Assembly (NCBI GenBank): GCA_001516055.1
Contig: LOEZ01000016.1
Coordinates: 62,001 to 126,000 of the forward strand
Source of the DNA: Gracilibacter sp. BRH_c7a
GTDB taxonomy: Bacteria; Bacillota; Desulfitobacteriia; Desulfitobacteriales; Syntrophobotulaceae
Length of the DNA stretch: 64,000 bases
Reading direction: 5' to 3'
The notes under the pieces are model-generated. The model saw only the letters and a program-made list of their open reading frames with translations. It was not told where the DNA came from and did no database searches. Of the stretch, positions 11,006-29,959 are shown one piece after another. How positions within the stretch are numbered: position 1 is the stretch's first letter; each line of letters starts with the position of its first letter. Position numbers and translations under genes: made by a program.

Positions 11006-11048
11006 AGAATGAACAATAGTCTATCTAATAGCAAACAAGCAAAAAAAG

Positions 11049-11094: not shown

Positions 11095-11123
11095 ATGCTA
11101 TTGATTTTAAAATAGAAGATTGT

Positions 11124-11861: not shown

Positions 11862-11914
11862 GATTATCCTCCTTGTATGTATAATATTATATTCGGTTAC
11901 CGTTTCTGTAAAAC

Positions 11915-11937
11915 AAAGGACGTTCTTAACGTCCTTT
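11915..11937 (-). terminator. Terminator of tatA
   Basis: AAAGGACGTT and AACGTCCTTT arms around a three-base loop, followed by GTTTT on the minus strand, 11 bp beyond the tatA stop. Confidence 0.8.
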
Positions 11938-11947
11938 GAAATGGTAT

Positions 11948-12151: not shown

Positions 12152-12214
12152 CAGAGTCACCTCCCCTATTACACATATTTCCCATGCTATTTGCTAATTA
12201 AACCTTGTTCAGAA

Positions 12215-13060
12215 TTATCCTAACGTAGAAAGAGAAAAATTGCAACAATTTTCGCCAGATAGTATTGTCTGGTATAAGAGGTATAATTCCCAAATAACAT
12301 CCCATAGCTCTCCTACTGCTTCAGTGACACATAGACCCATTTCTTTTGCTTCCTGACGACCAATAGGGTAGCCGTGTGAGAAATATCCATTAGTAAGAGA
12401 CTGTGTCACTAAGGCAATCTTCTCCCGATCATTTTTAAGCATATATTTAGATAAGAGAGATTCTGCATACTGTTTGGAAGCTTTTAGGGCTTTCTCATAA
12501 TCACCAATCAACCAAGGATCTAATTTTGAAAGAACCGAGCTCATAATTGTTTCAGCAACATCAGGATTAGAACTATTATTGATCATCTCTTCTATATATT
12601 CGAAACAGCATCTTAAAGCTTGTACAGGAATCCAGAAATCTTTGTAGGAAGGATGCTTAACTAAAGGGTCTATCGGCCCTAGCTCGGATATCGGCCCCAT
12701 CACAACTTCATCTGCACCCAACACTATCATGGAAGCAGCTGACTTAGCAGAAAAAGGTACAATTACTGAAAATTTCTCACAGAATTCACGGATAAGCATC
12801 ACCACTTTATAGGGAGTATCAACTGCTCCCCCATAACTATGAAGAAACAAATCTATTTTTTCTGTCTTGCCTATATTCGCTAATTCTTGGTATAAGGGAA
12901 CTAGTATCCTATCGTCAAGTGGAGTATAAGAAAAATAAACGATTACTTTGGATCCTCTAATGATTTCTAGCTTTTCTAATAAACCTTTCCTTTTTTGTTC
13001 ATCCAAATAAAGCAACTCCTTAAAAAGAAAATATTGTAATATTATTCTATTTTTTTCCAA
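12215..13060 (-). CDS. SDH-family Clp-fold serine proteinase
   Basis: A 281-residue protein of the serine dehydrogenase proteinase family (ClpP/crotonase fold). Visible family features are VIVYFSYTPLDDRILVPLYQEL, the LFLHSYGGAVDTPYKVVMLIRE segment, and SAKSAASMIVLGADEVVMGPISELGPIDP, whose serine in the SAKSAAS region is the expected nucleophile. There is no signal peptide, so it is probably cytoplasmic. The natural substrate is not known for most members. It lies between the polyprenyl synthase gene and tatA, behind a strong terminator. Confidence 0.85.
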   Translation of the reverse strand: MEKNRIILQYFLFKELLYLDEQKRKGLLEKLEIIRGSKVIVYFSYTPLDDRILVPLYQELANIGKTEKIDLFLHSYGGAVDTPYKVVMLIREFCEKFSVIVPFSAKSAASMIVLGADEVVMGPISELGPIDPLVKHPSYKDFWIPVQALRCCFEYIEEMINNSSNPDVAETIMSSVLSKLDPWLIGDYEKALKASKQYAESLLSKYMLKNDREKIALVTQSLTNGYFSHGYPIGRQEAKEMGLCVTEAVGELWDVIWELYLLYQTILSGENCCNFSLSTLG

Positions 13061-13100
13061 TTGGTAATGTGTGCTTTATTTGCATATTTGGTATAAAGAT

Positions 13101-13135
13101 AAGAAATAAAGTCGCTCATAGCGACTTTATTTCTT
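13101..13135. terminator. Strong hairpin terminator between hepT and the protease gene
   Basis: A 16-bp perfect stem (AAGAAATAAAGTCGCT / AGCGACTTTATTTCTT) with a three-base CAT loop. Its A/T-rich flanks allow it to work on either strand. It ends the tatC-tatB-hepT transcript. Confidence 0.82.
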
Positions 13136-13154
13136 ATAATGGTTTTTAAATATT

Positions 13155-14123
13155 CTAGTAACCTCTTTCTCCTACGAATTCAGCTAATTCGATTAATGCT
13201 CCGCGGGATCCAATATCAGGAAGCTCATAAAGGTGTCTAATAGCCTTCTCTATATATAGGGTAACTACTTCTCGGGATTTTTCAATTCCACCAGATTCTT
13301 TTATTAATTCTACTGCCTCTTGTGTTTCCTCCTCAGATTTTACTCTTTTGCTTAAGAGTGTTTTTAGCCTCTCTGAAGATTGAGTATCCTGAAGAGCATA
13401 AATCATGGGCAGCGTAATGATACCCTGGCGGATATCCCCTCCGACAGGTTTTCCTAATACTTTAGGATTCGCCGTTATATCAAGGATATCATCTACTATT
13501 TGAAAGGCAATCCCTAGACAGTGTCCATATGTACTCATTAACCATACTTGTCTGCTGTCAGCGTTAGACATGATGGCTCCTAGTTTGCAACTCAATCCCA
13601 AAAGAAGAGCGGTCTTCCTTCTAATACGATAATAGTATTCTTTAGGGGATTGGTTAATATCATAAGAACATTTAATCTGTTGAATTTCTCCCTGACACAT
13701 CTCAATACTAACATCGGCTAATATTCGAGATACTTTGGGATCATCAATTTTAACAATAAGTTCTAAAGCTTTAGCAAAAAGATAGTCTCCAGTTGCAATG
13801 GAAACTGTATTCCCCCAGCTGGCAGCAAGAGTAGGGCGCCCTCTTCTAGTTAGGGATGCATCAACTACATCATCATGAACAAGAGTGGCCATATGAATAA
13901 GTTCAATAGCCATAGCTACCGGCAGAAGTTTTTCAAACTTATATTGAAAGAACTTCCCAGAAAGTAAAGTAAAACCAGGACGCATTCTTTTACCACCGGC
14001 TTGAAGTAAGTATACACATGTTTGAGATAGTACTGGGTCACTTACTTTTAAAAACTTGTCTAACTCTTTTTCTACTTTTTTTAAGTCATTAGCAATTTCT
14101 AAGAATAGCTTTTGGTGTTTCAA
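13155..14123 (-). CDS. hepT: Polyprenyl (heptaprenyl-type) diphosphate synthase
   Basis: Chain-elongating trans-prenyltransferase that makes the long isoprenoid tail of menaquinone or a related lipid. The 322-residue protein has both aspartate-rich Mg-binding motifs: DDVVD at 84-88 and DDILD at 211-215, plus the GKRMRPG and RRGRPT substrate-binding stretches. It starts three bases after tatB, so the three genes form one transcript. Chain length cannot be assigned. A related protein lacking both Asp motifs is encoded about 1.4 kb upstream of this gene. Confidence 0.9.
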   Translation of the reverse strand: MKHQKLFLEIANDLKKVEKELDKFLKVSDPVLSQTCVYLLQAGGKRMRPGFTLLSGKFFQYKFEKLLPVAMAIELIHMATLVHDDVVDASLTRRGRPTLAASWGNTVSIATGDYLFAKALELIVKIDDPKVSRILADVSIEMCQGEIQQIKCSYDINQSPKEYYYRIRRKTALLLGLSCKLGAIMSNADSRQVWLMSTYGHCLGIAFQIVDDILDITANPKVLGKPVGGDIRQGIITLPMIYALQDTQSSERLKTLLSKRVKSEEETQEAVELIKESGGIEKSREVVTLYIEKAIRHLYELPDIGSRGALIELAEFVGERGY

Positions 14124-14126
14124 ATA

Positions 14127-14537
14127 TCACTCACCTGCTTGTTTATCTTTTGGATATGTTACGACATCTGCAGGAAGATCTGATAGAGGATTGGAATAAT
14201 TAGACTCTGTATCTATTGTCTTTGGCTTCTCTTCTAGTTTATTGTCTTCATAAGTAAGTAATTCTTCTCTATCATCACTTTCCTTCTCTGATGGAGATTT
14301 TTCTTCAGAAAATGATTTTTCTTTGGTTATCTTCTCTTTGTTAGGTTCCTTCAAGACATCATTAACCATATTAGTAGGTGTATCTATTACATCTTTAAAC
14401 TCTTTTGTTATTTCGTTAGCAAATTTCCTTATGTTATATACCGTTTTCCCAAGGGCCCTAGCAAAAACAGGTAAATCTTCTGGGCCAAAAAGGATAAGGG
14501 CTATGATCATAATGATTGCAATTTGCATTAAACTCAT
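14127..14537 (-). CDS. tatB: TatA/TatB-family translocase subunit with long acidic tail
   Basis: A 136-residue protein with an N-terminal helix (AIIMIIALILFGPEDLPVFARALGK), followed by an amphipathic helix and a long charged tail rich in Glu, Lys and Ser. FGPEDLP with an acidic residue in the hinge and the longer tail suggest the TatB role, which recruits substrates with TatC. It is four bases after tatC and three before hepT. Distinguishing TatA from TatB in Firmicutes by sequence is uncertain. Confidence 0.85.
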   Translation of the reverse strand: MSLMQIAIIMIIALILFGPEDLPVFARALGKTVYNIRKFANEITKEFKDVIDTPTNMVNDVLKEPNKEKITKEKSFSEEKSPSEKESDDREELLTYEDNKLEEKPKTIDTESNYSNPLSDLPADVVTYPKDKQAGE

Positions 14538-14541
14538 CTTC

Positions 14542-15303
14542 TTACCCTTCCCCCTTAACTTTTTCTTCAGTCAGTTTTTTCTTGCGGACAATTAAGAACC
14601 CAAGCCAAATACTAATCTCGTAAAGCATATACATGGGTCCAACCATTAATAACTGAGTCATAAGATCAGGCGTTGGAGAAATAATCACTGCAAGAACAAT
14701 AATTATAAAAAAAGCATATTTCCGGTATTTTGCTAATGTTTGAGGAGCTAAAATACCAAGTCTGATTAATAGTAAAAGCACTACTGGTAGTTGAAAAACA
14801 ATCCCAAAGCTCAATATAAAAGTCAATATAAATCCTAGATATGACGATTTTGTCACAAATGGGGTAGATTCTACTGCCCCACCTCCGACAAACATCAGAA
14901 AGTTAAGGCCAATAGGTAATACAAAGTAAAATGCAAACCCAGCACCACTTAGAAAAAGAATAATCGACGATGGAACGATAAAATATAAGTATTTCCTTTC
15001 GTTTTTTTGCAGAGCCGGCAAGACAAAACTCCAAATCTGCCAAAAGATAATCGGAAGTGCAACAATTATACCTGCAACTAGAGAGATTTTAAGTTTTACA
15101 AGTATAGGCTCCATCGGCGTAGTAGTGATAAAGCTAACTTCCTCAATTCCAACCATTGGCTGAGCCAAAAATCGATATAACATATCGCTAAATATCCAGC
15201 CGATTACAGTACCGAATGCTATAGCATAAGCTGAAATAAGCAGAACCTTGCGTAGTTCTTTAAAGTGATCTAGCAAAGGCATTTCTTTTTTTCTTCGTCG
15301 CAA
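14542..15303 (-). CDS. tatC: Twin-arginine translocase subunit TatC
   Basis: Signal-recognition component of the Tat translocase. The 253-residue protein has six hydrophobic helices and the family landmarks MPLLDHFKELRKVL at the N-terminus, PMEPILVKLKIS, FWQIWSFVLPAL..NERKY and AVISPTPDLMTQLLM. First gene of the tatC-tatB-hepT operon. Substrates of the system are not evident in the window. Confidence 0.96.
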   Translation of the reverse strand: MRRRKKEMPLLDHFKELRKVLLISAYAIAFGTVIGWIFSDMLYRFLAQPMVGIEEVSFITTTPMEPILVKLKISLVAGIIVALPIIFWQIWSFVLPALQKNERKYLYFIVPSSIILFLSGAGFAFYFVLPIGLNFLMFVGGGAVESTPFVTKSSYLGFILTFILSFGIVFQLPVVLLLLIRLGILAPQTLAKYRKYAFFIIIVLAVIISPTPDLMTQLLMVGPMYMLYEISIWLGFLIVRKKKLTEEKVKGEG

Positions 15304-15544
15304 AGGTTACACTTCCTCCCCTTTTACCTCTAAATCCTTATAATTTTACCATGTTATAATGAGAAAACCAAATTAAAAACTCAATATATTAATAGTATAT
15401 ATTAATAATCAACAGTAAAAAGTAAAAAAGAAGCCCCCACAAATTCAGGTAACTTCCTTTACGAGAGTTGTTAAATCAATACCTATAATTTCTGCGTAGA
15501 ACCCAATCAAGTTATTATGTAGACATTGTGGGAGTAGAATGAAA

Positions 15545-16297
15545 TTAACTACTAGCTAATTCTGAATTAATACGAATCTTGTCATTGAAAAACTCAAAGA
15601 CTTCCTGCAATGGTTTTGTAGAGTATTGATCCCGTAACTCATTTATTATAACTTTCGCTTTACTCAGATACTCTCGAACAATTGGCATACCAAGAGGTTC
15701 CTCCCAAGCTGCCCAAGCCATACCAATCAGATAGCCAAAATCCTCAAGTTTCTTAGCATTAGGCCCTTCGATTCCAGATACTTTGGCCCCAAGTCTCCCC
15801 ACAAGAGCCGTTAAAGATCCTCTTTCCTTACCAAGTATTTCGCGATAGTCTTTTGAGGATATATTTTTATTCTTTAACCGCCATCGCATGAGCACTCCTT
15901 CATTCATTTCCTCAATTATTCTAATGAAGTCATTAGAATAATTGAAAAGATCACCCTCACATAGTTTAGAAAAAGCTTGCCCCAACATGAAATCTCCTAC
16001 TAGTACCGGATACTGTCGTTCATGTTCAGTCATAGGTTCGTCTTTAACTAACCGATGAATCTGATTAGCAATAAAAATATACTGAAATATTGTGGCAAAA
16101 TTAATTAAATTATTATTGCTCTTTTGGCTTTTTAGAGTAGTCACAGCAAAAAACAAAGCTGGACACAATTTGTTATCCAAACTAGTCTTGGGCAAATCTA
16201 TAAGTTCTTCCAATGTCACAGATTTGAAAGAAATATCCTTATTCATCTGCGTTTCAACTAACTTTAGTTCCGTCTGAAAGCTTTTCAGCATGAACAC
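15545..16297 (-). CDS. Degenerate isoprenyl-synthase-like protein lacking Asp-rich motifs
   Basis: A 250-residue protein whose middle aligns with trans-prenyltransferases: FIANQIHRLVKDEPMTEHER stands where HepT has the HDDVVD helix, VLVGDFMLGQAFSKL matches the GDYLFAKAL helix, and IGMAWAAWEEPLG replaces the second DDILD helix. Both Mg-binding aspartate clusters are gone, so the classical reaction is unlikely. It may be a non-catalytic partner subunit of a two-component synthase, or it may have a new function. It lies upstream of tatC on the same strand, about 240 bp away. Confidence 0.6.
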   Translation of the reverse strand: MFMLKSFQTELKLVETQMNKDISFKSVTLEELIDLPKTSLDNKLCPALFFAVTTLKSQKSNNNLINFATIFQYIFIANQIHRLVKDEPMTEHERQYPVLVGDFMLGQAFSKLCEGDLFNYSNDFIRIIEEMNEGVLMRWRLKNKNISSKDYREILGKERGSLTALVGRLGAKVSGIEGPNAKKLEDFGYLIGMAWAAWEEPLGMPIVREYLSKAKVIINELRDQYSTKPLQEVFEFFNDKIRINSELASS

Positions 16298-16403
16298 CTG
16301 CTTTCCAAAGAAGATCAGTCTAATATATATTTTACATTATTCGGTACAAACAAAAAAATTCCTTCCATGTATTCCTGCTTATTATTCAAAATACGACAGA
16401 TTT

Positions 16404-16751
16404 CTATACAAGTTCAGTTTCATAGTCTTCTCTGACTAAAAAGTGGGCCTTAAGTAATATCGCAGCAAGTTCTTCAATAGGAGTAGTTGCAACTTCCCTA
16501 TATTTTCTTCTGGTATAGAGGTGGTGGAAGTTAGGGAATTCATGTTTGATACTTCTTCGGAGCTTTTGACCTGCTTCATCAGCATCTACCAAAATGAAGA
16601 CTTCATCATACTCTTCTTCATCAATAAGTTTCTCTAGTTTATCGCTACTAATGGTTCCATAAGTGCAAATGATATCTACATCTTCATCAAGAATTCCCAA
16701 TAATCTTTCACGATCGGTTTTTCCTTCTACAATTATTGCTTTGCTCATCAT
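16404..16751 (-). CDS. Small toprim-domain protein
   Basis: About 116 residues forming a single toprim fold: the catalytic Glu in AIIVEGKTDRERLL near the N-terminus and the DxD pair in VFILVDADEAGQKLRR. Toprim domains occur in primases, topoisomerases, RNase M5 and OLD nucleases; stand-alone proteins of this size may be M5-like or accessory. The ribosome-binding site is weak (GAAAGTTGAG), and two adjacent ATG codons (16751, 16748) or an upstream TTG are possible starts. The frameshifted kinase lies just upstream. Confidence 0.75.
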   Translation of the reverse strand: MMSKAIIVEGKTDRERLLGILDEDVDIICTYGTISSDKLEKLIDEEEYDEVFILVDADEAGQKLRRSIKHEFPNFHHLYTRRKYREVATTPIEELAAILLKAHFLVREDYETELV

Positions 16752-16789
16752 TCTCAACTTTCATTACCACTTTTTTGTAAACTTTCTAT

Positions 16790-17916
16790 TTATCTATCAC
16801 CTGAATTAAATCTAACATAAAACGATGTGCCATTTAAACCTGTATCAATAGTAATTTTAGCATTATGTCTCTCCGCTATACTATAACATATTACCAAGCC
16901 CATCCCTGTACCACTTTCTTTGGTAGTAAAAAAAGGAGTACCAATTTCTTTAAGAATAGTTTCTTCAATCCCTTTCCCTTCATCCTTTATTTGTAGTACT
17001 ACTTCTTCATCCTCATAGTAGGTTTTGATTGTAACGGTACCGTTTAAAGGTGATGCTTCGATCGCATTACGAGTTAGGTTAATTAACAACTGTCTTAAGG
17101 CACTTTCATCCAAATCAATATCCGGAACATTCGATAATTCTAGTTTTATATCTTTACCATCATTATATGCTCCCGCATGTATCATAGGAAATATTCTATT
17201 TATACATGTGTTGATGTTATCTTTTTTTAGAATAAGAGCTTTATTTTTGGAAAGAGCCAGAAATTCAGTAATTATAGAGTCCGACCTATCTATTTCTTCT
17301 ATCATTATATCAAAGTATTCCTTAATTTGACTAAGTTCACTTCGACCACTTAACATTTGAATAAATCCTCTTACTGTTGTGATTGAATTCCTGAACTCAT
17401 GACTGATGCCTACACCCATTTGACCAATTAGTTTAAGTCTATCCAGTTTTGCCATCTCTTCTTCCATGGACTTTTGTTTCGTAACATCAGTTATATCTTC
17501 CAGGTAATACTTGACAGACCCAATCTCAACCTCACTCCTATTTAAGATTCCTATCCTTGGAGTGCCCCCTTTATTATTAAATGTAATCTCTAAATTATTT
17601 ATACATCCGGACAGAAGATTGTTTTCAATCTTTCCACAATACTATCATTCAGCCAAATATTAATGTCTCTTTCATTCTTACCGATGACTTCTTCTCTTGA
17701 GTAACCGGTGTTTAGCAGCCAGCTATCGTTAACATTAACAATTCTGCCGCTGAAAGTTTTAATTGACATCATACTTGTACCGGTATTGAACATTTTCATA
17801 AATAATTCATCAGAATTATAATCTTTTTTCATACTATTCAAGACATAGACTTTCTTAAGCTCTTTAGGTGCAAGCCTGCAATTCAAAATAGAATCTACCT
17901 TCCTCATCAGTAACAA
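16790..17916 (-). pseudogene. PAS-domain sensor histidine kinase broken by a frameshift
   Basis: Two minus-strand frames together make one kinase. 17916-17599 encodes a PAS domain (GRIVNVNDSWLLNTGYSREEVIGK) that stops at CPDV. A second frame continues without a start through GCINNLEITFNNKG and YYLEDITDVTKQ (the end of a PAS fold). It then enters the HisKA box GISHEFRNSITTVRGF, the N box LLINLTRNAIEAS and the G boxes DEGKGIEE and GTGMGLVIC. The shift lies near 17600-17640. No response regulator is adjacent. A sequencing error is the alternative to true decay. Confidence 0.75.
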
Positions 17917-18768: not shown

Positions 18769-19608
18769 CTAGTATTCCGCAGGTAATCTTTCTAATTCCG
18801 CCAGACTAAAAACAGGACCATCTTTACATACATACTTATCCCCGATGTTGCAGCGTCCGCAGTGGCCAATGCCGCATTTCATCTTCATTTCCAAGGAGGT
18901 ATATATTGTGTTGCTTTCAAAACCCAATTGTTTTAGAACCGGCATAGTAAACTTGATCATAACAGGCGGGCCACAGACTATTGCGACTGCGTTTACAGAT
19001 GCTTTTATCACCTGCTCAGTAATTTGGGGAACAAATCCAACGTAATGCTGCCACCCTTCAACTGCTCTATCTATAGTTAAATACAGGTTTAGGTCATTTA
19101 TTTCCGCCCATCTTGACATTTCTTCTTTATAAAGCATTTGACCAGGATTTCTATTTCCATAGACTACATCCAATTTTCCAAATTTTTGACGATTTTCAGG
19201 TTCGATAATATACCTGACCAGTGATCTTAAGGTGGTAAAAGCAAAGCCGCCTCCGATTATCACAAGATCTTTTCCTTTTAGTTTTCCCATTGGCCAGCCA
19301 TTACCCAATGGTCCTCTTATGCCGATAATATCCCCCTCTTCAGCCTCATGTAAGCGGCATGTCAAGAGTCCGACTTTTTTTATAGAAAAACGAATTAGAT
19401 TTGGTTCACATGGCGCTGAAGCTATCCCGAAAGGGGCTTCTCCTATTCCGGCCACACTAACCTCGGCAAACTGTCCAGGTGTATAGCTGAAGCTTTCAGC
19501 AATGTCTGAATCTATAAATGAAAGGTCTATGGTCTTCAAGTCTCTTTCAGGGCTTTCATCTACCACCTTTACTACCCTCATTTGATAAGGAACATAAGGA
19601 TTGTTCAT
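18769..19608 (-). CDS. flxA: FlxA: FAD/NAD(P)H-binding subunit of the Flx oxidoreductase
   Basis: Electron-input subunit that takes electrons from NADH. The 279-residue protein is a ferredoxin-reductase-type flavoprotein: FAD-binding SYTPGQFAEVSV, NAD-binding VIIGGGFAFTTLRSLVRYI and VCGPPVMIKFTMPVL, and a C-terminal [2Fe-2S] site CGIGHCGRCNIGDKYVC. It resembles AsrB/PyrK-type subunits and matches FlxA of the FlxABCD-HdrABC NADH dehydrogenase/heterodisulfide reductase described in Desulfovibrio vulgaris. Its start overlaps the flxB stop by four bases (ATGA), implying translational coupling. Confidence 0.85.
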   Translation of the reverse strand: MNNPYVPYQMRVVKVVDESPERDLKTIDLSFIDSDIAESFSYTPGQFAEVSVAGIGEAPFGIASAPCEPNLIRFSIKKVGLLTCRLHEAEEGDIIGIRGPLGNGWPMGKLKGKDLVIIGGGFAFTTLRSLVRYIIEPENRQKFGKLDVVYGNRNPGQMLYKEEMSRWAEINDLNLYLTIDRAVEGWQHYVGFVPQITEQVIKASVNAVAIVCGPPVMIKFTMPVLKQLGFESNTIYTSLEMKMKCGIGHCGRCNIGDKYVCKDGPVFSLAELERLPAEY

Positions 19609-20630
19609 GGCTGCTTCACCCCTTTTATTGATTCTAGAAATTCCCTGATATCAAAATTTACTGGACATTTTTGGACACAACGGCCACAGCCCACACAAGC
19701 AACACTGCCGTACTTATCCGGGAAATAGGAGAATTTATGCATTATCCTCTGCCTGATCCTTTCTTTACCAGTAGGGCGAGGGTTATGCCCCGAACCATGT
19801 TTAGTAAATGATGAGAACATACAGGAATCCCAGCTGCGGATTATCTTACCTTTCTTATCATCGGTAATATCAAAACAATGACATGTAGGACATAGAAAAG
19901 TGCAGATCCCACAGTTCAGACATTTTTCCTGAATTTCTTCCCAGATTGAACTTGTAAACATTCCGGATAACTTTGCGATATCTTCTTGCCTGACTACCTC
20001 CTGGTAATCTGGGCAAAATATAGAACTGCTTTCCTCATTTCTAATCGTCAGGTAATCCTCAAAAATCTCCCGGCCTTTTTCGGTTCTAATATCCACCAGA
20101 TAGTCGTCTGCGACTCTCACCAGCAAAGCATCTGCACCTCTGGCTGACATAGGATTCTGGCAGAAACATACTTCAGACTGTGTTTGACAGGCCAGGCTAA
20201 TGATAGTGGTGTTCGAGCGTCTAGATTGATAATAAGGGTCTTGATATTCCTGTCCAATAAATACGTGGTCAAGTAATTCCAGACTTGCTGCATCACATGG
20301 CCGTATCCCGAAGATTACACGTTTTTCCTTTGAGATGTCCGGCTCATTGATCACTGGTCTTTCTCCTTTATTCTTCTGGTATTTTAATAGCATTTCGTAT
20401 TGAGGGAAAAACAAGTCTTTGGGAGGCTTAATAGTATTAACGTAATCTGTCCCCGGCAGGATTTTACCCGCTAAATCTTCTGAGTTTTCATCCCCGTCGA
20501 TCAAGTGTTCATCAAACGTTGAGAAGCTATAATATTCTCCTGTCTTTACTGGAACGTAAACTGTACTTTGTTTGCTTATATCTCTAAGGCAGGTGATCAA
20601 CCTCTCCGGTGAAATATAGTAATTAGCCAT
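19605..20630 (-). CDS. flxB: FlxB: AsrA-like iron-sulfur subunit
   Basis: A 341-residue electron-transfer subunit related to anaerobic sulfite reductase subunit A. The N-terminal domain includes VIFGIRPCDAASLELLDHVF; the C-terminal part has two [4Fe-4S] motifs, CLNCGICTFLCP and CVGCGRCVQKCP. It would pass electrons between FlxA and the other iron-sulfur subunits. Start ATG 20630 follows GGAGGTGG; the TTG five codons upstream lies in that site. It overlaps flxC by eight bases and flxA by four. Confidence 0.83.
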   Translation of the reverse strand: MANYYISPERLITCLRDISKQSTVYVPVKTGEYYSFSTFDEHLIDGDENSEDLAGKILPGTDYVNTIKPPKDLFFPQYEMLLKYQKNKGERPVINEPDISKEKRVIFGIRPCDAASLELLDHVFIGQEYQDPYYQSRRSNTTIISLACQTQSEVCFCQNPMSARGADALLVRVADDYLVDIRTEKGREIFEDYLTIRNEESSSIFCPDYQEVVRQEDIAKLSGMFTSSIWEEIQEKCLNCGICTFLCPTCHCFDITDDKKGKIIRSWDSCMFSSFTKHGSGHNPRPTGKERIRQRIMHKFSYFPDKYGSVACVGCGRCVQKCPVNFDIREFLESIKGVKQP

Positions 20631-21516
20631 CTTTTCCACCTCCAATCAGGAAGGGCTGGGGATCATCTTGCCTGAATTCATTTAATGCCAGTTCTTCTTT
20701 AAGGTCCATGCCGGTTTCCAAGGAAAAATAGACCTTAACATCTTTAGCCAGTTTTCTATTTAAAATAGAAAGGTTTACCCCGGCAGGACAAGCTCTGGTA
20801 CAGGCTCCACAGTCTACACATCTTCCAGCCAAATGGATTGCCCGGGTCAGATGAAAAATCATATTATCAGCGATCCCAGTAGTTTTTCCTAGCCAACCAG
20901 GCAGGTTTTCTTCAACGAAGCACTCTTTACAATAACAAGCCGGACAAACATTCCTACAGGCATAACACCTTATGCATTTAGATACTTCTTGGTAGATATA
21001 GTCCTTTCTCTGTTCTCTGGGGATAGCACTGAAGGCTTCAATATCCGGATAGTCGATCTTTTGATCCGTAGAAAATTCTTTATTCAAAGAGTTCTCATTA
21101 TTAACATTAAAAGAATCTTTTTCTATTTCTTCTGACTTTTGACTTATTAAGATATCGGCTATTACCGGATCAGGGTAATGACAATGAGGGCAACCTTCCG
21201 TACTTGGACAATAGGCACCAATAATAACTATTTCCTCTCTGGCTATCTGTTTTTCTTTGATCAGATTAATGATAGATCTGGAATCACAACCCTTTACGAT
21301 AATTGCAGCCTTTTTTTTCGTCTTTAATAAATACTTGGCAAGGTTTAGGTTACAGCCAGATTCCCAGACCAGATTGTTAATATCCTGACTTGTTCTTGCA
21401 AAGAAGGGGGTGCATTTGTTGGAGAGGGTTCCTTTGGTGAATCCCAGAATCACCTCTGCCTTATTTTCCTTTAAAACTTCTCTGGCCGCTGACTTGATAC
21501 CGTCCAATACATTCAC
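20623..21516 (-). CDS. flxC: FlxC: iron-sulfur subunit with FrhB/FdhB-like N-terminus
   Basis: About 297 residues. The first half resembles the N-terminus of F420-hydrogenase/formate-dehydrogenase beta subunits (IIVKGCDSRSIINLIKE, IIGAYCPSTEGCPHCH). A charged linker follows. The second half has Cys motifs CIRCYACRNVCPACYCKECF and CVDCGACTRACP for two [4Fe-4S] clusters. It matches FlxC in gene position and content. GTG 21516 is preferred because it forms a GTGA overlap with the flxD stop; ATG 21531 in the same frame is the alternative. Confidence 0.8.
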   Translation of the reverse strand: MNVLDGIKSAAREVLKENKAEVILGFTKGTLSNKCTPFFARTSQDINNLVWESGCNLNLAKYLLKTKKKAAIIVKGCDSRSIINLIKEKQIAREEIVIIGAYCPSTEGCPHCHYPDPVIADILISQKSEEIEKDSFNVNNENSLNKEFSTDQKIDYPDIEAFSAIPREQRKDYIYQEVSKCIRCYACRNVCPACYCKECFVEENLPGWLGKTTGIADNMIFHLTRAIHLAGRCVDCGACTRACPAGVNLSILNRKLAKDVKVYFSLETGMDLKEELALNEFRQDDPQPFLIGGGKDG

Positions 21517-21923
21517 CTGCTCCACCCCCATCTATCCCATTTCTCCAGTTTGTTGACATCATTGGCTACCTTTGTTGCTGTTACGGCAAAATCTTTGCCT
21601 TCAGCAGCAGAAATCCAATCAAATTGAACTCTTTCTTCTTCTAATCCAATGAATTTCAGCAGACTTTTGACCAGCGCAAACTTCCTTCTTGCCACATAGT
21701 TCCCGCTGGTATAGTGACAGTCGCCGGGATGACAACCAGCTACCAGAACGCCGTCTGCGTTCTTCAGAGCCTCAAAAATCATCAGAGGGTCAACACGGCC
21801 GGAGCAAGGAACTCTTATAATTCTCAGGTTAGGAGGATATTGAAAGCGGCTTATCCCTGCCAGGTCCGCCCCGGCATAACTGCACCAGTTGCAAAGGAAG
21901 GCGATAATTTTTCTATCATCCAT
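21513..21923 (-). CDS. flxD: FlxD: MvhD-type [2Fe-2S] subunit
   Basis: A 136-residue MvhD-family protein that docks electron-input modules on HdrA. The conserved cysteines are C11 and C14 (FLCNWCSYAGAD), C40 (RVPCSGR), and C64/C69 (AGCHPGDCHY), the expected pattern for the [2Fe-2S] site. The gene starts three bases after hdrA, with its ribosome-binding site inside the hdrA end, and overlaps flxC. In methanogens and Flx systems this subunit hands electrons to the HdrA flavin. Confidence 0.92.
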   Translation of the reverse strand: MDDRKIIAFLCNWCSYAGADLAGISRFQYPPNLRIIRVPCSGRVDPLMIFEALKNADGVLVAGCHPGDCHYTSGNYVARRKFALVKSLLKFIGLEEERVQFDWISAAEGKDFAVTATKVANDVNKLEKWDRWGWSR

Positions 21924-21926: not shown

Positions 21927-24900
21927 TCACACCACCTTATTCAAATCTTCCAGCATGGCCATAATCTGCGAATTGCTGAAACCTTTTAAATCAGCCGCAT
22001 GTGACCTGCAGGATGCAACACATGCACCGCAACCCTTACAGAGAGCTTCATTTACCCTGGCGGTATGCTTTTCTTCGTCAAGTTCTACTGCTTTGGCAGG
22101 ACATACTGTGACACATGTTCCGCACCCGCTGCATTTCTCGCTATTTATCTCTGCCGTCATGCCGCCTGCCATGATTTCTTTCTTGTTGAGAACTGTACAT
22201 GTTCTGGCTGCTGCAGCTTTCCCCTGGATGATCGCTTCTGACATCGGTTTTGGTCCGTGAGCCAAACCACACAAGTAAACACCGTCCGTACTGAAGTCTA
22301 CCGGCCTTAGTTTCATGTGGGCTTCCAAGAAAAAGCCATCCTCGTTAATGGGAACTTTTAATAATTTAGCCAGACGCTCATTGTCCGGATTAGCTACTGT
22401 AGCAGCTCCTAATCCTAAGATATCGGCTGGGATTATTAAATCCCTGTTCAGGATGGTATCTTTGATTTTTACCTGTAGGATACTATTATCTACTGTTACT
22501 TCGGGAGGAAGATCTTCCTCATAGGAGACGAATATGACCCCTTTTCTTCTGGCCTCCAAATAATAATCTTCAGTAAAACCGTAAGTTCTTATATCTCGAT
22601 ACAGCACAAAGATATTCAGATAAGGATTTATCTCTTTGGCTTTTAAGGAGAGCTGAACTGACTGATTACAGCAAACTTTACTGCAGTAAGAATGATTTTT
22701 ATTTCTGGAACCCACACAGTTGACAAGAACCAGGTTTTTAATGCTTTTTATCACTTCCGGTTTCGTTAAAATAGTTTCCTCAAGTTCCAGATAAGTTTTG
22801 ACAGCTTGGTTAGTTCCATAGAAATACTCCTTTGGTCTATACTCTTTGGCTCCGGTAGCCAGGACTACCACTCCATGCTCCAGCCTGACGCCACTGGCTA
22901 AAGTTGTTTCATAATTGCCTATATATCCTTTGATAGCTGATATTTCTTCCTGCAGATACACACTGATATCAGGATTTTGTCTTACTTTATATTTTAATTC
23001 TTGCACAAATTCTTCAACAGCATTTCCGTACTGATTGAAAACCACCCTGTTAGCCATGCCGCCAAGTTCCTGCGTTTTTTCAATGAGATATACCTGGTAT
23101 CCCTGAGCCGCTATGCTTAAAGCTGATATCATCCCGCTTACCCCACCGCCAATAACAAGAGCACTCGGCGTAACTTTTACAGTTTTAGTCTGAATAGGAG
23201 TCAGATATCTGGCCTTAGCTACTGCCATCAGGATCAGATCCTTAGCCTTACTGGTAGCAGCCAGTGGTTCATTCATATGAACCCAGGAACATTGATCCCG
23301 AATATTGGCCATTTCAAAAAGAAATGGATTCAGTCCGGCCTCTCTGATTGTTTCTTTGAATAAAGGTTCATGGGTTCTGGGGCTGCAGGAGGCGACTACT
23401 ACCCTGTTAAGTCTGTGTTCTTTGATTTTTTCTTTTATTCTCAGCTGAGTATCCTGGGAGCAGGTATACATATTATCTTCTACATAGACCACGTTATCTA
23501 ATTCTTGCGTGTACTTAACAACCTCCGGGATGTTAACAATACCTCCGATATTAATGCCGCAATGGCAGATAAAGACTCCGATCCGGGGCTTATAGCCAAC
23601 TACATCAACTTCTTGAGGGTAGCTTTTAACTTGTATCAAGCTGTTTTTTGCTCTCACCAGATAGCTGGCAGCTTCGGCTGCTGCCGCACTGGCCTCAGTC
23701 ACTGTCTCAGGAATATCTTTTGGTCCGCTGTATACTCCTGCTGCCAAGATACCTTTTTGGGAAGTTTGAATAGATTTTAGGTCATTAGTTTGAACAAAGC
23801 CGTACTTATTAGCTTTCAGATCGAAGGTTTTGAGCAATTCTATAGACTCTGCCGGTGGGTTCAAACCAACAGACAGCACAACCATCTCAAATTCATCTGT
23901 TCTTAGACATCCATCTTGTTCTGCATACCTGATCAGCAGGTTGCCATTATCACCTTTGACAACCTCAAAAATTCTAGAACGTGTAAATTTTACTCCCTGC
24001 TCTTTGGCTCTCTGATAATATTTTTCAAAATCTTTACCATGGCAGCGCATATCCATATAGAAGATGGTGGTTTCTAATGGCTGTCTACTGTGTTCTTTGG
24101 CAATGACAGCTTCTTTAATGGCATACATACAACAAACACTTGAACAGTAGCCGTTATCTTCCTTAACATTTCTGGAGCCAACACACTGTATCCAGGCAAT
24201 GCGTTTTGGTTCTTTTCCATCTGAAGGTCTGAGCAAATGACCGCCGTAGGGACCCGAAGCACTTAAAATCCGTTCGAATTGAGGACTGGTTACAACATTA
24301 GGAAAACTCTTATATCCATAATTACCTAGCTTTTCGGCAGGAAAGTCATTAAAGCCCGGTGTAAGAATGATAGCTCCAACTTCAATATCCAAATACTCTA
24401 CATTTTGGCTATAATCGATACAGCCAGCTTTGCATACTACCTGACATTGGCCGCATTCGCTACAGGGACCGCAGTCCAAACACCGCCCTGCCTCTGTCAA
24501 TGCTTCTTCCTCTGTTATCCCCAAGACAACCTCGGCAAAATTGTTTACCCTCTCTTCAACTGGAACTTCTCTTGGGTTTACTCTCGGGATAACCGGTAAA
24601 GTCTCGGTAATCTTCGGCTTTGGAGCAACTTTCTGTGTAATTATTCTGCCGTCTTTCAGGTTTCTGCCTTCCAGATAACGGATGATCGATTCTGCAGCTT
24701 CTTTACCTTCTCTTACAGCTTGAATGGCTATACCTGAACCTGTTCTGACTTCACCACCTGCAAATACCCAGGGAATAGTCGTCTCCAGGGTTAATTCATC
24801 ACAGGCAATCGCACCCCAAGCAGTGGTCTTAATACTGTCCGGCAAACAATCGATGCTGGGTTTTTGTCCTACTGCCGAGATGATCGTATCGATCGATTCA

Positions 24901-26330
24901 ATGATTTCAGAACCTGGAATCTGTACCGGACGTCTTCTGCCGGAATCATCAGGATCTCCGAGTTCCATAGCTGCGAATTCAATTGCAGTAACCTTTCCGT
25001 TCACATCTATAATTCTTGTCGGGGCCATTTTGTATTTTATTTTGATTCCTTCTGCCATGGCAGCTTCAATCTCTTCTGCGCGCGCCGGCATCTCCTGTCG
25101 GGAACGACGATAATAAATTGTTACTTCTTCAGCACCTAGACGCAGAGCACTTCTGGCGGCATCTATGGCAACATCCCCGCCGCCTATAACAGCTGCTTTA
25201 CGTCCTATTTCTGTCGACTCCTGAAGATTAACTCTTCTTAAAAACTCCACTCCGGATAAGACTTGAGGCAGGTCTTCACCAGGTATCTTTAATCTGCTGT
25301 CCTGATGAGCACCTGTAGCCAGAAAGACGGCTTTGTATCCCTCCTCTTTCAGCTCTTCCAAAGTGATATCTTCACCGAATTTTGTATTGAGGGCTATTTT
25401 CACTCCATGGGATACCAAATAGTTAATTTCTTTGGTCAGAATAGCTAGCGGAAGTCTATAATCAGGAATACCGACAGCCAGCATCCCACCAGCAACAGGT
25501 AATTTCTCAAAAATTTTTGCTTTATAACCCTGCTTTAAGAGTTCGTAGGCACAGGTTAAGCCCGCAGGCCCCGAACCTATAATAGCGACCTTATCATCTT
25601 TAGACTCAGATAGATTAAGTTCGGGCCGTAGCTGAGTCTCTGCTAGAAATCGTTTAACTGCCGCTATCGATAGTGCTCCTTCAGCTTGACTGCGACTGCA
25701 TTCGTTCTCACAGGGATGAGGGCAGATTCTGCCTAGAGTGGCCGGAAGTAAAAGATCGTTATATATTATATCTGCCGCTTCTTTGAACTTCCCTGCTCTG
25801 GTTAAGGCTATATATCCATGGGCATTTACCCCCGCTGGGCAGGCTGCTTTACATGGGGAAATCCCTTTTTTCTTAATGGCATAAGCATTTGGATAGGCCT
25901 GAGCATATAGTTTGTAGATGGCTTTAGAATCTGACAGATTCTTTTCAAATTCGTTATTTGCTTGAACCGGACAAGCCTCTGCGCAATCTCCGCACCCAGT
26001 GCATTTTTCTTCATCAATATACCTCGGTTCTTGTTTCAGTATGATTGTGAAGTTGCCATGAGACCCCTTAACTCCTACAACCTCACTATTTGTATAGGTC
26101 TTAATATTTAAATGACGACCACATTCCACAAGTTTTGGAGAAAGAATACACATTGAACAGTCGTTAGTAGGGAAGGTTTTATCTAAAGCAGGCATTGTTC
26201 CGCCAATTGCAGATGATTTTTCAACCAGATATACCTTATATCCCATCTCTGCAAGATCTAGGGAAGCCTGGATACCGGCAATTCCTCCGCCCACCACCAG
26301 AACAGCACCGATGACATTACATTCATCCAT
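21927..26330 (-). CDS. hdrA: Giant HdrA with inserted GltD/NfnB-like module and second HdrA half
   Basis: FAD iron-sulfur core expected to carry out electron bifurcation. The 1467 residues divide as follows: HdrA FAD domain (VVGGGIAGI, 12-20) and a CTGCGDCAEACP cluster (110-121); a GltD/NfnB-like module (about 156-615: PCKAACPAGVNAHGYI, IGSGPAGL at 251-258, IGGGDVAID at 382-390, FAGGEVRTGSG); a Cys-rich return at 617-637; the rest of the first HdrA to about 893; then a second HdrA half (CHCG at 922, GGGVSGM at 1061) ending in two [4Fe-4S] motifs (C1400-C1410, C1431-C1441). Simple HdrAs are near 650 residues. ATG 26330 is chosen because the upstream GTG overlaps AGAGGTGGG. Confidence 0.88.
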   Translation of the reverse strand: MDECNVIGAVLVVGGGIAGIQASLDLAEMGYKVYLVEKSSAIGGTMPALDKTFPTNDCSMCILSPKLVECGRHLNIKTYTNSEVVGVKGSHGNFTIILKQEPRYIDEEKCTGCGDCAEACPVQANNEFEKNLSDSKAIYKLYAQAYPNAYAIKKKGISPCKAACPAGVNAHGYIALTRAGKFKEAADIIYNDLLLPATLGRICPHPCENECSRSQAEGALSIAAVKRFLAETQLRPELNLSESKDDKVAIIGSGPAGLTCAYELLKQGYKAKIFEKLPVAGGMLAVGIPDYRLPLAILTKEINYLVSHGVKIALNTKFGEDITLEELKEEGYKAVFLATGAHQDSRLKIPGEDLPQVLSGVEFLRRVNLQESTEIGRKAAVIGGGDVAIDAARSALRLGAEEVTIYYRRSRQEMPARAEEIEAAMAEGIKIKYKMAPTRIIDVNGKVTAIEFAAMELGDPDDSGRRRPVQIPGSEIIESIDTIISAVGQKPSIDCLPDSIKTTAWGAIACDELTLETTIPWVFAGGEVRTGSGIAIQAVREGKEAAESIIRYLEGRNLKDGRIITQKVAPKPKITETLPVIPRVNPREVPVEERVNNFAEVVLGITEEEALTEAGRCLDCGPCSECGQCQVVCKAGCIDYSQNVEYLDIEVGAIILTPGFNDFPAEKLGNYGYKSFPNVVTSPQFERILSASGPYGGHLLRPSDGKEPKRIAWIQCVGSRNVKEDNGYCSSVCCMYAIKEAVIAKEHSRQPLETTIFYMDMRCHGKDFEKYYQRAKEQGVKFTRSRIFEVVKGDNGNLLIRYAEQDGCLRTDEFEMVVLSVGLNPPAESIELLKTFDLKANKYGFVQTNDLKSIQTSQKGILAAGVYSGPKDIPETVTEASAAAAEAASYLVRAKNSLIQVKSYPQEVDVVGYKPRIGVFICHCGINIGGIVNIPEVVKYTQELDNVVYVEDNMYTCSQDTQLRIKEKIKEHRLNRVVVASCSPRTHEPLFKETIREAGLNPFLFEMANIRDQCSWVHMNEPLAATSKAKDLILMAVAKARYLTPIQTKTVKVTPSALVIGGGVSGMISALSIAAQGYQVYLIEKTQELGGMANRVVFNQYGNAVEEFVQELKYKVRQNPDISVYLQEEISAIKGYIGNYETTLASGVRLEHGVVVLATGAKEYRPKEYFYGTNQAVKTYLELEETILTKPEVIKSIKNLVLVNCVGSRNKNHSYCSKVCCNQSVQLSLKAKEINPYLNIFVLYRDIRTYGFTEDYYLEARRKGVIFVSYEEDLPPEVTVDNSILQVKIKDTILNRDLIIPADILGLGAATVANPDNERLAKLLKVPINEDGFFLEAHMKLRPVDFSTDGVYLCGLAHGPKPMSEAIIQGKAAAARTCTVLNKKEIMAGGMTAEINSEKCSGCGTCVTVCPAKAVELDEEKHTARVNEALCKGCGACVASCRSHAADLKGFSNSQIMAMLEDLNKVV

Positions 26331-26357
26331 CTTTTTCCCACCTCTCTTCACTTGGAA

Positions 26358-27584
26358 TTAAAAGACCAGAGCATTACTGACCATATGGTGAACATGTTTA
26401 ACTTTAGCATCCAGCTTATAATGTTTGATGATATCACTGAGCTGATCAGCACAGTTATGACAAGGAGTTATCACGATTTTGGCTCCGGTTTGTTTGATCT
26501 GGTCTGCTTTTAATTTTCCATTGGCGATTCGATAAGGATGAATCTCTTTACCCATGGCCAGAAGGCCGCCCCCGCCGCCGCAGCAATAATTGTATTCCCT
26601 GTTAGGCCACATTTCCCTGAATTCCACAACAGACTTGTTCAAACAATAGCGAGGTTCTTCCACAACTCCTTCTTTTCTGACCATATTGCAGGGATCATGA
26701 AAAGTAACTGGTTCAGGATTGCGGCTGGGGTCTAGCCTGATAATGCCTTTGGCGATCCATTCTGCTTGTTTCTCTACAAGACTAAACACAGGGTAATTCC
26801 CTTCATTCGCATCTAACCAAACCTTTCTACCCCAGCGTTGTGCACGGGTGGCGTGACCACATTCTGTTACAACCACGTATTTTACATTTAACCTCTTAAC
26901 CTGCTGAGCTGTTCTTTGGAGCATGATTCTGGAAGACTTGTCATCACCGTTAAAATAAGCGTAGTGGGTCGCATCCCAACATTCACTGCTGCAAGTCCAA
27001 TTTGCCCCGGCTGCGTACATGATTTTAGCTATACTTTGAATATCCTGGGGGTAATACTTAATTTCCCGGGGGTCCCATAGAAAAACAAAATCAGCACCAA
27101 GTTTATCTACTGGAATCTTAGCATCTGTGGTTCCGACTTCCTCCTGCAGCTCTTCTTCCATCCACTCCAGAGTATCCAGGTAATCTTCTGCACTAATCTC
27201 CATCTGGTTACCGGTTTCTATCTGAGAGACAACTACGTCATCTAAAAAACCTGGTGACTTAAGACCGAAATTACCTCTGATGGTTCGTACTAATCCAGCT
27301 ATATCTACATTCATAGGGCAAAGCATGGTACACCTTCCACACATGGTGCATTTCCAGATAAAACTGCTTTGCAGCACTTCATCTTTTAAACCTAAGAGAC
27401 ACATCCGAATGAATTTACGAGGATCGAAATCTGGATGAAGATCTGTGAAGGGACAACCCGCAGTGCAGATTCCGCAGGTAAGACAGTTACTAAAGTCCCC
27501 TTTATCCTGAAGGGTAGTGAATCTATCAGATATTTCTCTTCCGAATTCAGGCCTGAGATTATCAGTTAGGATTGAATTATTCAC
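26358..27584 (-). CDS. HdrC-HdrB fusion of the DsrK/HdrD type
   Basis: Catalytic disulfide-reductase candidate, 408 residues. Two N-terminal [4Fe-4S] motifs (C34-C44, C79-C89) form the HdrC-like part. The HdrB-like part has a degenerate first cysteine site (NWTCSSECWDATHY) and one complete CCG domain (HDPCNMVR, YCCGGGGGLL, CHNC) for the noncubane cluster that cleaves disulfides. The single complete CCG domain and wording resemble DsrK, the partner of DsrC in sulfate reducers. GTG 27584 follows GAGGAGG. It lies between the two dsrC-like genes and hdrA, which fits a role in reducing them. Confidence 0.87.
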   Translation of the reverse strand: MNNSILTDNLRPEFGREISDRFTTLQDKGDFSNCLTCGICTAGCPFTDLHPDFDPRKFIRMCLLGLKDEVLQSSFIWKCTMCGRCTMLCPMNVDIAGLVRTIRGNFGLKSPGFLDDVVVSQIETGNQMEISAEDYLDTLEWMEEELQEEVGTTDAKIPVDKLGADFVFLWDPREIKYYPQDIQSIAKIMYAAGANWTCSSECWDATHYAYFNGDDKSSRIMLQRTAQQVKRLNVKYVVVTECGHATRAQRWGRKVWLDANEGNYPVFSLVEKQAEWIAKGIIRLDPSRNPEPVTFHDPCNMVRKEGVVEEPRYCLNKSVVEFREMWPNREYNYCCGGGGGLLAMGKEIHPYRIANGKLKADQIKQTGAKIVITPCHNCADQLSDIIKHYKLDAKVKHVHHMVSNALVF

Positions 27585-27598: not shown

Positions 27599-27934
27599 CT
27601 ATATTTCAAAATTCCAATAAGGAAGACCCAGAACTGTGCAAACAATACAGTCAAGATTAAACAATGTGTGAGGCCAATCTGGAAATAAAGCAAAAAATTC
27701 AGCCATCGAAAAACCTGTTAGGGTACAAATTTCTTTCACAGAAGGGGCACGGTTCTTTTTCAGATAATATTCACGAACATATCTCATAACCAAGTAGTGT
27801 TGATCTGTAACTGGACTGATTTTTTCTAATTTAGTCAGGACTTTGTAGACCATCTGCTTCCAAATATGCTCGTCTGTGATACAAGAAGTTCCCTTAGCCA
27901 AAAACTTCCTTCTGATAGAACTTGAGGGCAGCAT
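27599..27934 (-). CDS. DsrC/TusE-like protein 2 (CxxC at the CysB position, no CysA)
   Basis: A 111-residue DsrC-family protein. The core ISPVTDQHYLVMRYVREYY, KEICTLTGFSMAEFFALFP aligns with DsrC. In DsrC the C-terminal arm has two redox cysteines, CysB before (K/M)AGLP and a penultimate CysA. Here CysB is kept as Cys99 (CTVLGLP), preceded by Cys96 to give CIVC, after a short insertion. The arm ends PYWNFEI with no CysA. ATG 27934 follows AAGGAGG at normal spacing. It is adjacent to the DsrK-like reductase gene. Confidence 0.72.
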   Translation of the reverse strand: MLPSSSIRRKFLAKGTSCITDEHIWKQMVYKVLTKLEKISPVTDQHYLVMRYVREYYLKKNRAPSVKEICTLTGFSMAEFFALFPDWPHTLFNLDCIVCTVLGLPYWNFEI

Positions 27935-27952
27935 TTTTAACACCTCCTTAAA

Positions 27953-28264
27953 TCAGGGATTATCTAATACCGGGGGACCAGTGCAGAACGAACTTGGTAC
28001 TCCAGCAATTCTGGCGGCACTTCTGACAGGACCTCTAGGAAATAATCTGCAAATATCTATTGTTGTCAAACCTGTTGCCCCACAAATCTTAAAAATGGAC
28101 GGTATGCGTTTAAAGTCATGAAAATAGTCACGAATAAAGAATATTATCTGCCATTGCTGTTCGGATAAAATATAAATGTTATCATATTCAGCTAACAATT
28201 TGGCAATTTCTCTATTCCAGGCTCCGAAATCTAACAGGTAACCTTCCTTAACTAAAATTGTCAT
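27953..28264 (-). CDS. DsrC/TusE-like protein 1 (CysA kept, CysB replaced by Ala)
   Basis: First gene of the cluster, 103 residues. The N-terminal GYLLDFGAWN and the helices LSEQQWQIIFFIRDYF and FKICGATGLTTIDICRLFP align well with DsrC/TusE. The C-terminal arm reads GPVRSAARIAGVPSSFCTGPP: the DsrC CysB position is Ala84, while a CysA-like Cys94 remains, one residue closer than usual and followed by a nine-residue tail. Single-cysteine members such as TusE transfer sulfur; here it probably serves as thiol carrier or partner. ATG 28264 has GGAGGGGG and lies about 38 bp after the sigma-54 -12 element. Confidence 0.78.
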   Translation of the reverse strand: MTILVKEGYLLDFGAWNREIAKLLAEYDNIYILSEQQWQIIFFIRDYFHDFKRIPSIFKICGATGLTTIDICRLFPRGPVRSAARIAGVPSSFCTGPPVLDNP

Positions 28265-28302: not shown

Positions 28303-28318
28303 AGCAATTACCGTGCCA
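28303..28318 (-). promoter_or_regulatory. Perfect sigma-54 promoter of the dsrC-hdr-flx operon
   Basis: Read on the minus strand the sequence is TGGCACGGTAATTGCT, an exact match to the sigma-54 consensus TGGCACGNNNNTTGCW with the GG and GC elements correctly spaced. Transcription should start near 28292, about 28 bp before the first dsrC-like start codon. The sigma-54 activator gene upstream supports the assignment. Confidence 0.93.
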
Positions 28319-28444: not shown

Positions 28445-29761
28445 TCACAAATTATATTTCTTAATTTTATTATAGAGGGTTTTACGTGTTATACCTAAGA
28501 GCCTGGCGGTATCTTCTTTATTGCCTTCAGTCTGATTTAATATCTTTTGGATATGATATTTTTCTATATCACCTAAGTTGGTAAAATGGTTGTTTGCCGC
28601 ATCCGGCCATATCATATTAGGAGGTAAATCTTCGAACATAATAAAAGTACCTTTACCTTTAATAAAAGCATACTCTATGGCATTTTCCAGCTCACGTACA
28701 TTACCGGGGTAATTGTACGTGAGCAAAAATTTCAGAGCGTCCCGAGAAACTCCCTTTTTGGATTTTTTGAAGTAAGAATTAAACTTTTGGATAAAGAACT
28801 CTATTAACAAAGAAATGTCGTCAGTTCTCTCTCTAAGAGAAGGTAAATTTATAGGAAAGACATTGAGCCTATAAAAAAGATCCTGCCTAAAGTTACCCTT
28901 CTTAACTTCATCCGGAAGATTTTTATTGGTAGCAGCAACGACCCGAACATCAGGCTTCAAAGTTTTACTGCCGCCAACTCTTTCAAATTCGCCTTCTTGT
29001 AATACTCTTAACAGTTTTGCTTGTAACGATAAAGGTATCTCGGCAATCTCATCCAGAAAAATAGTGCCTTTTTCAGCTCTTTCAAATCTACCTTTGTGCG
29101 TAAAGGTCGCTCCTGTAAAGGCACCTTTCTCATGGCCAAAAAACTCTGATTCTAAAAGAGTGTCAGACAAAGCAGCACAGTTAACCTTGATAAAAGGCTT
29201 ATAACGTCGGTCACTTAGAAAATGGATAGCCTTAGCTACTAATTCTTTGCCTGTACCACTTTCCCCTACCACCAGTACACTAGTTCGATAAGGTGCAACC
29301 GCTTGAATCATTTCATATATTTCCTGCATCTTTTTGTTTTTGCCTATTATATCCTGAAAACTATAGCTTTTCTTTAGCTGCTGATATAAACTAAGAATCT
29401 TACTTTGATCAGAGAATATCTCTACTCCGCCTATGATGCTTCCCTGCTCGTTGAAAAATGGCATGACTGAAATCTCTACAGGTATCAATTTTCCCTCCTT
29501 GGAATTGATGACTACATTTGTAGAGTAACCTTTATCACCTTCGCTTACAGCCAGATGAACCAAACAACTTTCAGAACCACAATGGGAACCTTTGAGTACA
29601 TCGTAGCATTTCTTCCCAAGTACTTCCTCTCTTTTAAAGCCGGTCATATTCTCAGCAGCAGCGTTGAATGTAGTGATATTAAACTGCTTGTCTACAGTAA
29701 ATACACCTTCAGATATACTATTTATGACAAACTCAAAATCTATTTGGGTATTTTCTGTCAT
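28445..29761 (-). CDS. Sigma-54-dependent activator: PAS, AAA+, Fis-type HTH
   Basis: A 438-residue bacterial enhancer-binding protein. An N-terminal PAS domain ([21 protein letters not shown], about 15-120) contains a CGSESC cysteine pair that could sense redox state or metal. The AAA+ domain has Walker A GESGTGKE, the sigma-54 contact loop GAFTGA and Walker [14 protein letters not shown] Fis-type helix-turn-helix ([22 protein letters not shown]) ends the protein. ATG 29761 has AAAGGA at eight bases. It directly precedes the dsrC-hdr-flx operon, which has a perfect sigma-54 promoter, so it is the probable activator. Confidence 0.93.
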
Positions 29762-29959
29762 CTTAGACATCCTTTAAATATTTGTATATTCCATCTACTA
29801 GCTTACAAGGATTATGTTTTATATCATAGTTCTAGTAAAATATAACAAAATCCTTTTCCATTATGTATCTAAACAATAAATTGAAACAATAATTCCAAAA
29901 TAGAGTAATAGTAATCTTGTTCCTATAAGAATACTATTTATATAGAAGATTTTTAAAAT

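Follow-up and report, generated by a model that had tools for sequence, protein, structure and literature searches.

The window (the whole stretch of DNA analysed, 64,000 nucleotides of Gracilibacter sp. BRH_c7a) carries on its minus strand an operon in the order P1, P2, HdrD/TmcB-like reductase, HdrA, FlxD/MvhD, FlxC, FlxB and FlxA, in which P1 and P2 are two short DsrC-fold genes, and a sigma-54 activator gene lies upstream. The features, in the order of transcription, are:

28448..29770, minus strand: sigma-54-dependent activator with N-terminal PAS domain and Fis-type HTH, the next gene upstream of the operon (Pfam Sigma54_activat, PAS, HTH_8)
28303..28318, minus strand: sigma-54 promoter TGGCAC-GGTAA-TTGCT (TGGCACggtaaTTGCT), exact match, ~39-54 nt upstream of the P1 start codon
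27953..28264, minus strand: P1, DsrC-fold protein, 103 aa (PF04358, 71.0 bits; ribosome-binding site ggagggg)
27599..27934, minus strand: P2, divergent DsrC-fold protein, 111 aa (PF04358, 38.3 bits; start ATG; ribosome-binding site aggaggtg)
26358..27584, minus strand: HdrD/DsrK/TmcB/HmcF-like reductase (CCG, PF02754; two [4Fe-4S] motifs and one intact C-terminal CCG motif)
21927..26351, minus strand: HdrA, 1474 aa, with a GltD/NfnB-like NAD(P)-binding insertion (HdrA2, 967 bits; PRK12771, 524 bits over residues 156-657)
21513..21923, minus strand: MvhD/FlxD (PF02662, 174 bits)
20623..21531, minus strand: FlxC-like ferredoxin-domain protein (4Fe-4S domains; operon position and homologues)
19605..20645, minus strand: FlxB-like protein, AsrA/sulfhydrogenase beta-like (ShyB 160 bits, AsrA 149 bits)
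18769..19608, minus strand: FlxA-like flavin/NAD reductase subunit (open reading frame, with homologues at the same position in relatives)

The promoter is the sole exact sigma-54 match in the 64 kb window. The reductase scores 262 bits against HmcF, 258 against TmcB and 181 against DsrK, all under the equivalog cut-offs; these family profiles bear out the proposal, made in a sequence-only reading of the locus, that the two adjacent genes precede a DsrK-like reductase gene. The PAS domain of the activator contains a cysteine cluster, similar in L063, L147 and L160, which might serve as a redox or Fe-S sensor. HdrA proteins of about the same fused size as that of the window are present in L063, L104, L105, L146 and L149, and the HdrA of Desulfotomaculum reducens is described as enlarged, with putative domains for NADH binding (PMC4759654).

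Both small proteins genuinely belong to the DsrC fold family. Each passes the curated PF04358 (DsrC fold family) cut-off of 24.9 bits with the Pfam score listed above, and against TIGR03342 (the TusE/DsrC/DsvC subfamily, cut-off 53.5) P1 scores 64.8 bits and P2 33.6 bits. The AF2 model of P1 (pLDDT 85, with a disordered tail) matches DsrC chains 2xsj_C and 2v4j_C, which represent DsrC in the DsrAB-DsrC crystal, with a TM score of 0.80 and an rmsd of 1.4-1.5 Å (E 2.3e-5 to 2xsj_C). The best PDB matches of the P2 model (AF2, pLDDT 91.8) are likewise DsrC chains, though with a TM score of just ~0.52 and E 0.03; in this model N-terminal helices 6-13 and 17-20 replace the DsrC hairpin, and a long helix, 87-102, occupies the region of the DsrC CysB helix and flexible arm. 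Chance similarity to DsrC is ruled out by the profile scores, the fold match and the existence of orthologues.

DsrK-type enzymes normally reduce DsrC, which is thought to act wholly via two arm cysteines. DsrC is marked by a CxxxgxpxpxxC arm with both cysteines (PMC8190135), and it is by the arm cysteines that DsrC and TusE are distinguished (PMC3397948, PMC8190135, PMC6129605); in TusE-type homologues CysB is replaced by Ala, Ser or Thr (PMC3397948). With the register of arm positions counted from the common xAG-(L/V)P / xLG-LP motif, alignments place Ala84 in the CysB column of P1 and Cys99, within C96-I-V-C99, in that of P2, which has no CysA; both assignments had been made in the sequence-only reading and are confirmed. 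That reading had also called P1 Cys94 CysA-like, and here the residue is present but its register is not that of CysA: it lies 10 residues past the CysB position as against 11 in DsrC, and it falls outside the CysA column. Because nine residues follow it, as a C-terminal extension of P1, Cys94 is neither penultimate nor a true CysA. The arm of DsrC sensu stricto (CysB plus a penultimate CysA, 11 residues apart) is found in neither P1 nor P2, nor in any P1 orthologue. The pair also departs from TusE, defined by a penultimate CysA without CysB in a tus context, as the single P1 cysteine is off the penultimate position, P2 lacks CysA and the neighbours are hdr and flx genes. What the proteins share with reductive DsrC (PF04358/TIGR03342) is the fold (most closely in P1), the LFPxGP-xAG-LP motif and an adjoining DsrK-type reductase gene, and they differ from it in lacking the two-cysteine arm and, for P2, in the N-terminal helix and the long C-terminal helix.

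A search for the same gene pair beside dsrK-like or flx-hdr genes in other genomes, which the sequence-only reading had proposed as a check, was productive. Orthologous P1-P2 pairs occur in six other genomes: L144 (=L104, G201), L145 (=L161, G232), L146, L147 (UBA3933), L149 (Ca. Formimonas warabiya) and L160 (G166); in addition, Acididesulfobacillus acetoxydans (L148/L063) carries P2 twice and lacks P1. With L145 and L160, which are near copies, counted once, the independent lineages number seven for P2 and six for P1. Of 399 genomes sampled evenly across the phylum, four have the pair. In a maximum-likelihood tree the seven P1 sequences form one clade (96/91) and the nine P2 sequences another (100/100), both apart from canonical DsrC and TusE-like forms; the DsrC of G080, considered as a P2 relative, proved to be a canonical DsrC. 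In L145 and L160 the P1 stop and P2 start overlap by 4 nt. Few substitutions underlie the dN/dS ratios, which are ~0.06 (P1) and ~0.24 (P2) between L145 and L160 and 0.11 between the two L148 P2 copies. Fast sequence change and the loss of catalytic cysteines might suggest that P1 and P2 are TusE/DsrC paralogues in decay, no longer under selection for any function; this is highly improbable given purifying selection, intact open reading frames, good ribosome-binding sites, parallel clades and a position kept in phylogenetically separate genomes. Neither relatives of P1 nor a DNA match to P1-P2 was present in viral contigs and plasmids, and searches of the open-access literature turned up no account of a pair of this kind. 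In L160 (5337-8410; G166) two tyrosine recombinases and a small open reading frame separate the activator from P1-P2; they look like a recent insertion, since they are missing in the close relative L161 (G232).

Comparison of the orthologues shows that the arm cysteines turn over. The P1 arm has no cysteine in L144, CysB only in L145/L160 and L147, and a penultimate CysA only in L146 and L149. This last state, with CysB replaced, is shared with TusE and TusE-like proteins, which differ from the pair in that no tus genes lie near it, the cysteine of the window P1 is not penultimate and the other P1 proteins are CysB-only or devoid of arm cysteines. RspA-type homologues are defined by a DsrC fold with neither cysteine. 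The P2 arm is equally varied: C96/C99 (CIVC) in L144, together with a Cys near the end at the residue-109 position, C99 only (FIVC) in L145/L160, S/S at 96/99 plus a last-residue Cys in L146, S/A (SIVA) in L147, S/S (SIVS) in L149 and G/S (GIVS) plus a terminal CC in L148. The pair thus has one arm cysteine in total in L147 and L149, B in both proteins in L145/L160, an A+A pattern in L146 and, in L144, all its arm cysteines in P2. The HdrD-like reductase at these loci keeps all 14 Fe-S cysteines, which are invariant in nine relatives.

These patterns bear directly on the central proposal of the sequence-only reading, a split DsrC in which P1 Cys94 (as CysA) and P2 Cys99 (as CysB) are joined by a disulfide between the two proteins, which the HdrD-like protein reduces. 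The window alone combines one P1 arm cysteine with a filled P2 CysB position, and the complementary A/B pattern is confined to it among the seven lineages; Cys94 is off-register, and the CIVC lies in a helix and is replaced elsewhere by S, A, G or F. On the orthologue cysteine patterns a P1-P2 disulfide is rejected, and a divided DsrC accordingly retains very little credence. L144, where P1 has no arm cysteine and P2 has CIVC and a near-terminal Cys, comes close to the case, named beforehand as counting against the split, of one pair member with both cysteines. The other suggestion, that the CIVC is a self-contained redox site, fares no better: the motif is present in two of the seven lineages, with FIVC, SIVS, SIVA or GIVS in the others, and it sits inside helix 87-102 at pLDDT ~95, so that a thioredoxin-like CxxC site, being both unconserved and helical, is rejected. 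Across orthologues position 99 is C, S or A and position 96 is C, S, G or F, whereas I97, V98, V101 and L102 are fixed. The variable cysteine positions, the fixed hydrophobic residues and the location of CIVC within the helix lead us to infer that helix 87-102 is a packing or docking helix and not a redox arm.

Two other cysteines of P2 behave differently. All eight P2 sequences compared keep Cys18 and Cys70, the sole invariant cysteines of P2, and Cys18 is specific to the P2 clade. On this account P2 might serve the reductase as its own thiol/disulfide carrier, the active site having moved so that Cys18 and Cys70, in place of the arm cysteines, act as a redox pair or hold a disulfide partner, with P1 as chaperone or dimer partner; a CCG enzyme does require a disulfide substrate. 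However, Cys70, which many canonical DsrC proteins have as well, may be structural, and such a carrier is considered unlikely, if worth keeping in mind.

The electron-donor genes beside the pair vary. HdrD-HdrA-FlxDCBA lies beside it in the window, L144, L146 and L149, and beside P2 alone in L148; in L147 the pair is beside HdrA-HdrD-MvhD and a [NiFe] hydrogenase, and in L160 beside DsrM-DsrK. The contig ends after a DsrM-sized gene beside the pair in L145/L161. The constant neighbour is therefore a DsrK/HdrD-type CCG reductase while the donor varies (Flx, Mvh hydrogenase, DsrM), and no pair without a DsrK-type gene was seen at loci whose contig reaches that far. The L147 region (539-17614) as a whole contains a fused-HdrA-MvhD-FlxCBA cluster, an activator, P1, P2, a second HdrA-HdrD-MvhD set, and small and large subunits of a Vhu/Mvh-type hydrogenase.

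An activator similar to that of the window lies beside the pair in L145, L146, L147, L149 and L160, and beside the P2 copies in L148. Sigma-54 sites lie 50-52 nt upstream of P1 in L146, L147 and L149; in L148 each of the two P2 copies is preceded by one at 73-77 nt, and none was found in L144, L145 or L160. This association would fit a regulatory role, in which P1-P2, through the HTH-like core of the DsrC fold, tune the sigma-54 activator or promoter to the disulfide pool, and LexA and other HTH proteins do appear as weak structural matches. Those matches are not significant (E above 1), however, and L144 keeps the pair with neither activator nor promoter, whereas a DsrK-type gene is found at every locus where the contig continues; a regulatory function thus seems rather unlikely.

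The association with a DsrK-like enzyme and Hdr-Flx, proposed from the window, therefore generalises. The further claim that the system serves Hdr-Flx rather than sulfite reduction is not supported: the host genome has a canonical two-cysteine DsrC (AC-KVAGLMKPTG-CV) adjoining a DsrK-like gene and a true DsrA (562 bits), and so carries core sulfite reduction genes. Both dsrA and canonical dsrC are present in nearly all pair carriers, which leaves service to Hdr-Flx alone unsupported; the exception is the 1.9-Mb MAG G467, in which both genes were sought and neither was found. In the 399-genome sample 35 genomes have a close HdrD homologue, and DsrC occurs in 34 of these as against 25 of the 364 others, a difference that is confounded by kinship. 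The sole close-HdrD genome lacking DsrC, G211, has no DsrA above cut-off either, which indicates that the HdrD-HdrA reductase type can exist without DsrC; its locus L169 (4467-8916) holds an HdrD-like and HdrA pair.

Conservation of P1-P2 beside DsrK-type reductases suggests helper subunits rather than a DsrC split in two. The reading preferred here, held at close to even confidence, is that P1 and P2, two DsrC-fold proteins acting jointly, assist a DsrK/HdrD-type CCG reductase as accessory subunits for docking or as adaptors, independently of a CysA-CysB redox arm. It is favoured by the exchange of donor modules around a DsrK-type CCG subunit that stays, by retention of the pair without the activator in L144 and never, as far as contigs reach, without a DsrK-type gene, by the single clade formed by each protein, purifying selection and the overlapping genes of L145/L160, by the turnover of arm cysteines while the 14 Fe-S cysteines stay, by the confidently predicted helix 87-102, and, subject to the kinship noted, by the distribution of DsrC among close-HdrD genomes. 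It is weakened by G087, where the same HdrD-HdrA-Flx cluster (66% HdrD identity) lacks an adjacent DsrC-like gene and a canonical DsrC is encoded elsewhere in the genome, so that the enzyme does not need the pair in general; by the invariance of P2 Cys18 and Cys70, which a purely structural role leaves unexplained; and by the small number of lineages, seven. For P1-P2 and the reductase we infer a physical complex, a docking role and a substrate as follows. HdrA-FlxABCD would feed the reductase, with NADH in and ferredoxin and disulfide out; the reductase would probably serve the canonical DsrC disulfide/trisulfide of the cell or another disulfide; and P1 and P2, by virtue of their fold, would occupy the face that binds DsrC or give it its shape, with the long hydrophobic C-terminal helix of P2 contributing to that face and no CysA-CysB redox arm being used. 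In a bolder and more tentative form, the arm-free heteromeric P1-P2 may be a portable adaptor of CCG-type (DsrK/HdrD) reductases, passed along with the catalytic subunit among versions linked to NADH, H2 or quinol, and either gating the access of true DsrC or presenting another disulfide held by P2 Cys18.

A DsrC-fold pair that is kept beside DsrK-type reductases and yet is free to lose its arm cysteines would mean a non-catalytic role of the DsrC fold. The pair would also offer a small, expressible handle with which to pull out the soluble Flx-Hdr complex of Firmicutes and its disulfide substrate. A caution follows for annotation: arm cysteines alone cannot grade a DsrC homologue as functional or broken.

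An interaction of DsrC with FlxABCD-HdrABC (NADH dehydrogenase/heterodisulfide reductase) in Desulfovibrio vulgaris is attributed to Ferreira et al. 2023 in PMC10504309, and PMC4759654 also cites DsrC as the partner of this complex; for Desulfotomaculum reducens, DsrC has been proposed as the acceptor of similar clusters (PMC4759654). The window operon has homologues of HdrA, FlxD, FlxC, FlxB and FlxA in common with FlxABCD-HdrABC and differs in having a single HdrD/TmcB-like gene instead of hdrB and hdrC, a GltD-like insertion in HdrA and two DsrC-fold genes within the operon. With DsrMK, TmcB and HmcF it shares a reductase with one intact CCG and two [4Fe-4S] motifs, DsrC being the accepted substrate type; the window enzyme differs in being soluble and HdrA-Flx-linked and in scoring far under the HmcF, TmcB and DsrK equivalog cut-offs.

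Two further groups of DsrC homologues were encountered. A second short DsrC-like gene with a GLPxPxEC end (a terminal Cys, usually no CysB) is present at L162:5224-5667, L166:5927-6319, L163:6287-6559 and L164:5979-6407; in several genomes of families f16 and f36 such genes lie directly beside or within a few kb of canonical dsrC, and they form a separate DsrC paralogue pair. Single-cysteine DsrC homologues with a TusE-like arm (KATKIAGLSKPVSCV), from Clostridia-type genomes, make up a well-supported clade (L065, L068, L069, L070, L072, L165 and L171).
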